Assembly: GCF_900105965.1 (NCBI RefSeq)
Contig: NZ_FNTV01000001.1
Coordinates: forward strand, 3,968,001 to 4,032,000
Direction: 5' to 3'
Length of the DNA: 64,000 bases
Source of the DNA: Arthrobacter alpinus
GTDB lineage: Bacteria > Actinomycetota > Actinomycetes > Actinomycetales > Micrococcaceae
The notes below the pieces were generated by a model that saw nothing but the letters and a program-made list of their open reading frames with translations, did not search any database and was not told where the DNA came from. Within the stretch, counting starts at the first letter, position 1. Every line of letters starts with the position of its first letter. Position numbers and translations under genes: made by a program. Shown here one piece after another: positions 4,730 through 8,247 of the stretch.

Positions 4730-7324
4730 TTGGTCGCCTCGAGCACCTCTAATGTAAATAACGCTGCAACCGCTATCGATTCAAACAGCACCGATGGTGC
4801 AAAGAGTCGCCTCTCATTCGCAAAGATTCACGAGCCGCTTGACGTGCCGAATCTGCTTGCACTCCAGACCGAGAGCTTTGACTGGCTCGTAGGTAACGGG
4901 CGCTGGCAGGATCGCATGCAGACAGCTGTGGATGCTGGCGATGACAGTGTGGCCGTCACCTCGGGCCTATCCGACATCTTCGAAGAGATCTCCCCGATTG
5001 AGGACTTCCAGGGCACCATGTCCCTGTCCTTCACGGAACCGGAGTTCTCTGACCCCAAGTTCACCGTTGACGAGTGCAAGGACCGCGACGCTACGTACGC
5101 CGCACCGCTGTACGTCAAGGCCGAGTTCATGAACAACTTGACCGGTGAAATCAAGCAGCAGACTGTCTTCATGGGCGATTTCCCGCTCATGACCAACAAG
5201 GGTACCTTCGTCATCAACGGCACCGAGCGTGTTGTTGTGTCGCAGCTGGTCCGTTCCCCGGGTGCTTACTTTGAGCGCACTGCGGACAAGACCAGTGACA
5301 AGGAAATCTTCACCGCTAAGATCATCCCCTCACGTGGTGCATGGTTTGAGCTGGAGATTGACAAGCGCGACCAGGTTGGCGTTCGTCTTGACCGCAAGCG
5401 CAAGCAGTCGGTCACCGTACTGCTGAAGGCCTTGGGCTGGACCGAAGGTCAGATCCTGGAGGAGTTCGGCGAGTTCGACTCCATCCGTGCCACCTTGGAA
5501 AAGGATGCCACCACGGGTCGCGAAGATGCCTTGCTTGACATCTACCGGAAGCTGCGCCCGGGCGAGCCGCCCACAGTTGACGCCGCTGACGCGCTGCTGA
5601 ACAACCTGTACTTCAACCCCAAGCGCTACGATCTGGCCAAAGTGGGCCGTTACAAGATCAACCGCAAGCTGGGTATTGACCTGCCGTTGAGCGACGAGAA
5701 GGCATCAGTGCTGAGCGTGGACGACATCGTCGCCATGATCAAGTACCTGGTTGCTTTGCACGCCGGCAACAAGACCACCAAGGGCCAGCGCGACGGCGCC
5801 GAGGTTGACTTGCGCGTTGATGTCGATGACATCGACCACTTCGGCAACCGTCGTATCCGCGCCGTAGGCGAGCTCATCGAGAACCAGGTCCGCACGGGCC
5901 TTTCTCGTATGGAGCGCGTTGTTCGCGAGCGTATGACCACTCAGGACGTCGAAGCGATCACGCCGCAGACCCTGATCAACATCCGCCCCGTTGTGGCAGC
6001 CATCAAGGAGTTCTTCGGAACTTCCCAGCTCTCACAGTTCATGGATCAGAACAACCCGCTGGCCGGTCTGACGCACAAGCGTCGCCTGTCCGCGCTGGGC
6101 CCGGGCGGTTTGTCCCGTGACCGTGCAGGCATGGAAGTTCGAGACGTTCACCCGTCCCACTACGGCCGTATGTGCCCCATTGAAACCCCTGAAGGCCCCA
6201 ACATTGGTCTGATTGGTTCATTGGCATCCTACGGACGCATCAACCCGTTCGGTTTCATCGAGACCCCGTACCGCCGGGTCAAGGGTGGTGTGGTCTCTGA
6301 CGAGGTCGATTACCTGACTGCCGATGACGAGATGGAAGTTGTTATCGCTCAGGCCAACGCGCCGCTCGATGCCAACAACCACTTCGCCGAAGAATCCGTC
6401 CTGGTTCGCCAGCGCGGTGGTGGCGGCGAGCCGGTTTTGATCCCGGCCAACGACGTCGAGTACATGGATGTTTCCCCGCGCCAGATGGTGTCCGTGGCAA
6501 CAGCCTTGATCCCGTTCCTCGAGCACGACGATGCTAACCGCGCACTCATGGGTGCCAACATGCAGCGTCAGGCTGTGCCGCTGGTCCAGTCCGAGGCCCC
6601 GTTTGTGGGAACCGGCATGGAGCGCGCCACAGCAGTTGACGCCGGTGACGTTGTCATCGCCAAGAAGGCCGGTGTGGTCTCCGAGGTTTCAGCAGATGTT
6701 GTTGTCATGCTGAACGACGACGGCTCGGAGATCAGCTACCCGATCGCCAAGTACCAGCGTTCCAACCAGGGAACGGCCTACAACCAGCGCGTTTTGGCCT
6801 CTGAGGGCCAGCGTCTGGAAGTTGGCGGCATCATCGCTGATGGTCCGGCAACGGACATGGGTGAGCTTGCCTTGGGTAAGAACCTCTTGGTTGCCTTCAT
6901 GTCTTGGGAAGGTCACAACTACGAGGATGCCATCATCCTTTCGCAGCGCATTGTTGCCGAAGATGTACTGTCCTCCATTCACATCGAAGAGCATGAAATC
7001 GACGCCCGCGACACCAAGCTTGGTGCCGAGGAAATCACTCGGGACATCCCGAACGTTTCCGAGGAAATCCTTGCTGGTCTCGACGAGCGCGGCATCATCC
7101 ACATCGGTGCTGAAGTTGAAGCCGGCGACATCCTGGTTGGAAAGGTAACGCCTAAGGGCGAGACCGAGCTGACCCCGGAAGAGCGTTTGCTGCGCGCCAT
7201 CTTCGGTGAGAAGAGCCGCGAAGTTCGCGACACTTCCTTGAAGGTTCCCCACGGCGAGTCCGGAACTGTCATCGGTGTGCGCGTCTTCGACCGCGACTCC
7301 GAAGATGACCTGCCCCCGGAGTGA
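4730..7324 (+). CDS. rpoB: RNA polymerase beta subunit, N-terminal 864 residues (frame interrupted)
   Basis: RpoB forms half of the RNA polymerase active-site cleft. The TTG at 4730 is preferred over a GTG at 4715 because GGAAGGA (4717-4723) sits 6 bases before it and because it gives the actinobacterial start MVASSTSN. The segment covers the lobes, protrusion, fork loop and part of the hybrid-binding domain. The rifampicin region (about residues 428-460, [20 protein letters not shown] then SALGPGG) is wild type at the Asp, His and Ser positions linked with resistance. The frame ends at 7322-7324 (TGA) after DLPPE, where relatives read [14 protein letters not shown]; the next 308 residues continue in the -1 frame from 7321. 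Together the pieces give about 1172 residues, the normal length. Confidence 0.95.
7313..7324 (+). other. rpoB: Frameshift site inside rpoB
   Basis: The zero frame reads CCC CCG GAG TGA. One extra C (six instead of five at 7313-7317) or one extra G would give P-P-G-V-N-Q, the family sequence, with the two halves in one frame. As written, the TGA overlaps a GTG (GTGA at 7321-7324). A -1 slip on the CCCCC run would also restore exactly the expected residues. A base-call or assembly error in a homopolymer is the simplest reading. Confidence 0.9.
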
Positions 7325-8247
7325 ACCAGCTGGTTCGCGTCTACGTTGCCAACAAGCGCAAGATCACCGATGGTGACAAGCTCGCTGGCCGTCACGGTAA
7401 CAAGGGTGTCATCTCCAAGATCCTCCCGATCGAAGATATGCCCTTCTTGGCTGACGGCACCCCCGTTGACATCGTCCTGAACCCCTTGGGTGTTCCGGGT
7501 CGAATGAACGTTGGCCAGGTCCTGGAAATCCACCTCGGTTGGGTTGCCAAGACCGGTTGGAAGGTTGAAGGTGAGCCTGACTGGATCAAGAACCTGCCGA
7601 ACCTGCCGCGTGAAATCGGTCAGACGAAGGTTGCCACCCCGGTCTTCGACGGTGCCCGTGACTCTGAAATCACCGGCCTGCTCGATTCCACCAATGTGAC
7701 TCGCGACGGCGACCGCCTGATCGATTCCTCGGGTAAGACCCGTCTGTTCGACGGCCGCTCCGGCGAGCCGTTCCCGGATCCGATCTCCGTTGGTTACATG
7801 TACATCTTGAAGCTTCACCACTTGGTGGACGACAAGATCCACGCCCGCTCCACGGGCCCGTACTCCATGATCACCCAGCAGCCCTTGGGCGGTAAGGCCC
7901 AGTTCGGTGGCCAGCGCTTTGGTGAGATGGAAGTTTGGGCACTTGAGGCATACGGCGCGGCGTACACGCTGCAGGAACTGCTGACCATCAAGTCCGATGA
8001 CATCCATGGCCGCGTGAAGGTTTACGAAGCCATCGTCAAGGGCGAGAACATTCCGGAGCCGGGTATCCCCGAATCCTTCAAGGTTCTCATCAAGGAAATG
8101 CAGTCGCTGTGCCTGAACGTGGAAGTGCTTTCCACGGACGGAACCACGATTGAGATGCGTGACTCGGATGAAGAAGTCTTCCGGGCCGCGGAGGAGCTGG
8201 GCATCGACCTTTCACGGGCCGAGCCGAACTCTGTCGAAGAAGTTTAG
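7321..8247 (+). CDS. rpoB: RNA polymerase beta subunit, C-terminal 308 residues (frame interrupted)
   Basis: This continues RpoB with [20 protein letters not shown] and carries the catalytic-site lysines in [10 protein letters not shown], the region [22 protein letters not shown], and the C-terminal clamp segment ([37 protein letters not shown]) that contacts beta-prime. If the frameshift were real this would be translated as a separate chain from the GTG at 7321. GGAG touches that GTG with no spacing, so independent initiation would depend on coupling to the upstream stop. An intact single rpoB is far more likely. Confidence 0.95.

Follow-up and report, generated by a model that had tools for sequence, protein, structure and literature searches.

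The gene for the RNA polymerase beta subunit, rpoB, is essential, and in the assembled genome of the soil bacterium Arthrobacter alpinus (G000) it is laid out as two reading frames. The question raised by this locus is whether the break belongs to the chromosome or was introduced into the letters of the assembly. The DNA analysed, here called the window, is a stretch of 64,000 nucleotides; positions are those of the window unless a contig (C) is named.

The rpoB gene is read in two frames

In the window, rpoB runs from a TTG codon at 4730 to 7324, and again from a GTG codon at 7321 to 8247. The first-frame letters at positions 7310-7324 are CTG CCC CCG GAG TGA, while the -1 frame from 7321 reads GTG AAC CAG; the net change is -1 and falls at the C5-GG stretch at 7313-7319, which is one base short. 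The letters and the list of open reading frames confirm what the initial annotation had claimed, namely two frames with one base missing, coordinates with lengths of 864, 308 and about 1172 residues, and a GTG start that overlaps the stop by four bases. The annotation had also stated that the family sequence continues in the -1 frame, and in the alignment this holds over all 308 residues, so the break is more than chance. Judged from this genome alone, the change could lie anywhere inside the C5-GG stretch. The features are as follows.

4730 to 7324, plus strand: rpoB 5' part, 864 aa, beginning at TTG and ending at the TGA that the frame break produces
7313 to 7319, plus strand: C5-GG stretch, site of the frame change; the 62 other loci read by letter pattern have one base more
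7321 to 7324, plus strand: GTGA overlap of GTG and stop, deriving from the Val-Asn codons GTG-AAC
7321 to 8247, plus strand: rpoB 3' part, 308 aa read in the -1 frame; it contains [10 protein letters not shown], what remains of Rpb2 domain 6, and domain 7
8346 to 12248, plus strand: rpoC, open reading frame of 1300 aa

The length of 864 aa is counted from TTG 4730, which has GGAAGGA upstream; the mechanical open reading frame of the 5' part spans 4715-7324 and gives 869 aa from GTG 4715. The break severs the Pfam domain RNA_pol_Rpb2_6 between profile positions 204 and 208, and the search of the two contigs of the genome returned this domain as two pieces, 1-205 and 202-373. The 19-base break site occurs once in the genome with up to 2 mismatches allowed. 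In rpoC, PF04997, the first domain and the only one checked, lies in one frame with no stop. Scans of the whole window for tRNAs and Rfam families gave no match.

The site is intact in related genomes

We compared the site across genomes chosen as one per species. With the intact beta sequence of genome G007 as query, the frame was followed in all 112 loci, 3 of which are those of G000 itself. The results showed that all 109 loci of other records, including 21/21 same-genus loci, read through the site in an open frame; the 22nd same-genus genome, G011, was without a locus in this test and has one domain match at 8.3e-127. In a separate reading by letter pattern, 65 of the 112 loci fitted the pattern and 47 did not. 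Three of the 65 belong to G000, and the other 62 are all one base longer at the site.

In the wider family sample, a match to the domain was found in 389 of 395 genomes (G000 included) and none in 6. Ten other family genomes, having more than one domain match or a weak best match, were re-examined. The rpoB frame is broken inside this domain in at least 3 of the 394 other family genomes, each time elsewhere, as worked out from match coordinates: G412, a single contig rated 62% complete with the domain in three pieces, and G391 and G429, fragmented assemblies of 220 and 120 contigs. In G433 and G280 the domain match begins at a contig end, and G026, G362, G459 and G467 have a complete copy together with a 24-bit match in a longer frame. 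A complete rpoB and a partial second match (C4:336836-337489, domain positions 187-373) were observed in G206, the latter being a duplicate, a contaminant or a paralogue. The break at the C5-GG place is thus seen in the G000 assembly only, and rpoB breaks in the family are sporadic and scattered.

A single copy under purifying selection

Searched with the domain, the genome (two contigs of 4.62 Mb in total, completeness rated at 100%) matched only in the two pieces and gave no second rpoB. The second contig has 384,619 bases, and its first part (C2:1-20000) resembles the Arthrobacter alpinus plasmid NZ_CP013746.1, with 68% of the stretch at 96% identity.

The dN/dS ratios were computed against genomes G012 and G007, at dS of 0.20-0.29. 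The 5' part gave 0.025 and 0.027, respectively, and the 3' part 0.036 and 0.014. Both parts are under strong purifying selection and in use, from which it follows that the cell makes beta. Such ratios fit an intact gene and fit equally a working two-chain or slipped product; what they rule out is decay only.

Frame breaks of the same kind occur in unrelated genes

We surveyed 700 kb of the 4.24-Mb chromosome of G000 against 700 kb of G012 (C1:732001-1432000), and the same 700 kb also against 300 kb of G007 around rpoB, with the open frames of each genome searched in the other. A break was regarded as clean when the two pieces on either side of it were contiguous, lay in different frames and each reached 40 residues and 70% identity, and the gene families of split frames were assigned by Pfam. 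A first survey (300 kb, CTG starts allowed) was left out because of upstream extensions.

Against G012, clean breaks were found in 3 of 361 usable frames of G000; all are net -1 and adjoin a C/G run four or more bases long, the runs being C5, C5 and G4 for rpoB, a gene for an MFS transporter and a gene for a GH31 glycosidase, respectively. The MFS gene (C1:3602273, minus strand; net -1 beside the C5 run) is in one frame in 10 of 22 same-genus relatives, counting matches of at least 77% identity and including the query source G012. The GH31 gene (C1:3750211, minus strand; net -1 beside the G4 run) is intact in G012, and no other close copy was found among the 23 same-genus genomes searched. Both genes look non-essential and could be real pseudogenes.

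In the other direction, G012 against G000 gave 6 clean breaks in 353 frames, each of them -1 and adjoining a C/G run of four. G012 is a second assembly in few contigs, and one of its six breaks interrupts a gene encoding a GTPase domain of elongation-factor type. The 70-contig assembly G007 showed no clean break (0/155, a count that leaves out the frames of G012 in G007). With G007 as reference, 2 of 118 G000 frames were split. One is rpoB; the other, G007_66, lacks a run at its break, which falls just before a GTG preceded by AAGGAGG, and these letters suggest that the reference frame has been extended upstream. The G007 frames searched in G012 gave 1 of 119.

These counts are strict. A looser count of G000 against G012 gave 7 split rows, of which 3 pass; B012_224, B012_299 and B012_571 were dropped for breaks near the start, low identity or a break over a large gap, and B012_278 was dropped because its reference frame is truncated, the break being in G012 itself. 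Of the 11 split rows with G012 as target, 6 pass and the other 5 were left out. Rows with inner stops were also left out: 9 for G012 frames in G000, 20 for G000 frames in G012, 11 for G007 in G000, 5 for G000 in G007 and 13 for G007 in G012.

Random stretches of 19, 22 and 28 bases, matched in length to those at the breaks, hold a run of this kind in 11%, 13% and 16% of cases. By our own arithmetic, nine breaks out of nine beside runs would have a probability of about 4e-9, if the breaks are independent. That the -1 breaks of G000 and G012 stand beside C/G runs and that G007 shows none fits homopolymer deletions in assemblies.

A homopolymer length error best explains the break

We concluded that the rpoB break is, with high probability, a base-count error at a C/G homopolymer, and that rpoB on the actual chromosome is a single unbroken gene of about 1172 residues, like that of its relatives. 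The assembly would have dropped one base at the C5-GG stretch, giving a false frame break, and the DNA of G000 would be intact at the site. The number of contigs and the pattern of errors point to an assembly that may have been made from long reads without full polishing. The initial annotation had put an error in a homopolymer run first among its explanations, and this preference gains support from the other genes that break by -1 next to C/G runs, the open frame in all 109 other loci, the lack of a second rpoB in the two contigs, and the purifying selection on both parts.

The site has lost one base at a run relative to its relatives, and the same kind of break occurs in unrelated genes (3/361), one of the two splits with G007 as reference being without a run. 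A rate of 3 in 361 would predict that a few essential genes in each genome appear broken, and the case of rpoB would need no special cause. Run-length errors explain the pattern well; so does real mutation, but not easily in an essential single-copy gene.

In the excerpted text of PMC12007338, deletion errors in a long-read assembly are described as peaking after four to five identical bases, and correction completed 909 genes that frameshifts had fragmented. According to the excerpt of PMC8812927, homopolymer-length errors are the most common residual errors in bacterial assemblies made from long reads only. A PacBio genome of a relative, Arthrobacter alpinus R3.8, not shown to be this strain, is reported with 57 frameshifted genes in the portion of PMC5586057 consulted. 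Several observations count on the other side, among them the two possible pseudogenes and the G007_66 split without a run. Errors beside A/T runs are about twice those beside G/C in the same excerpt of PMC12007338, whereas all nine breaks found here are beside C/G; and a simple long-read account is at odds with the broken rpoB in the fragmented assemblies G391 and G429.

It is likely, then, that the split rpoB is an error in assembly and not a real feature, and the gene affected is a common marker gene. Further false gene breaks of this kind are probable in the assemblies G000 and G012.

Alternative readings of the break

Three other readings were considered. The first, which we hold to be very improbable, takes the DNA as given and beta as two chains of 864 and 308 residues, with the stop at 7322-7324 coupled to reinitiation at GTG 7321 and the chains assembling with alpha and beta'. 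The GTGA overlap is present, both parts are conserved, and the break aligns with E. coli beta 1043-1046, right after the insert bi9 (938-1040). As the break adjoins bi9, a chain cut there is structurally not absurd; deletions and insertions at bi9 of E. coli beta (deletion of 938-1040) support growth, according to the excerpt of PMC2939025. The overlap is not independent evidence: GTG-AAC is the usual codon pair here (43 of the 62 intact loci read by pattern), and when a base is missing directly before it, a TGA comes into frame at that point, with GTG remaining as a codon of the original frame. Inspection by eye of the 20 bases ahead of 7321 revealed no Shine-Dalgarno sequence that would give the second chain an initiation signal of its own; coupling might occur without one. 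The split is not common to relatives, the frame being open in 109/109 other loci, and the same -1 signature is found in unrelated genes. The real two-chain beta that the initial annotation had entertained is therefore unsupported, its GTGA being a by-product of normal codons with no ribosome-binding site by eye at GTG 7321. The annotation had further argued that the 308-residue part is indispensable; it does hold [10 protein letters not shown], but this does not exclude two chains, since the break adjoins an insertion-tolerant place. If true, two-chain beta would represent a novel organisation of a subunit that is encoded without interruption across this site in all the other loci compared. 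Among the matches listed for split rpoB or rpoB frameshifting in the open literature, the titles and the starts of the abstracts contain no bacterial chromosomal case.

More doubtful again is the reading in which the DNA is as given and slippage on the C run, either of the ribosome into the -1 frame or during transcription, yields a single beta. Slipping back by one base there does enter the frame of the family sequence, but the in-phase letters G CCC CCG are not a heptamer of the form X XXY YYZ. Nor is there a stimulatory structure downstream, as the 80-base folds at and after the break, computed without pseudoknots and scored against shuffles, are ordinary (z of -0.34 and 0.39; 0.68 in a relative). 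The excerpt of a review, PMC5009743, places transcriptional slippage in bacteria on runs of nine A or T. An essential and abundant subunit would, moreover, need very efficient slippage. Programmed slippage, also put forward in the initial annotation, thus finds no support in either the heptamer or the downstream fold.

The least credible reading is that the sequenced culture did lose one base recently and tolerated this through a second copy that went unseen or because the population was mixed. Homopolymer runs are mutational hotspots, but the two contigs hold no second rpoB and a fixed loss in this essential gene would be lethal without suppression.

Comparison with known systems

Large polymerase subunits made as several chains are found in archaea (B'/B'') and in cyanobacteria (rpoC1/rpoC2); split E. 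coli beta chains have been the subject of experiments, which are not used as evidence here. The polymerase of phage phiKZ is made of fragments related to the large subunits, according to the excerpt of PMC4666361. In all these systems several chains correspond to one large subunit, as they would in a two-chain beta. The rpoB of G000 is unlike these multi-chain polymerases in that it is split in none of the 109 other loci and shows, by eye, no ribosome-binding site for a second chain.

The likeness to published long-read deletion errors, as given in the excerpts of PMC12007338 and PMC8812927, is closer: they too are -1 changes beside runs of four to five bases in several unrelated genes. The assembly described in the former differs in having more errors at A/T runs than at G/C runs, in contrast to nine of nine at C/G here. 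With the ordinary actinobacterial rpoB (for example chain 8dy7_C, 1178 residues), the gene of G000 shares its sequence, its domains, the rpoC downstream of it and purifying selection, and it differs in that the letters of the assembly are one base short.
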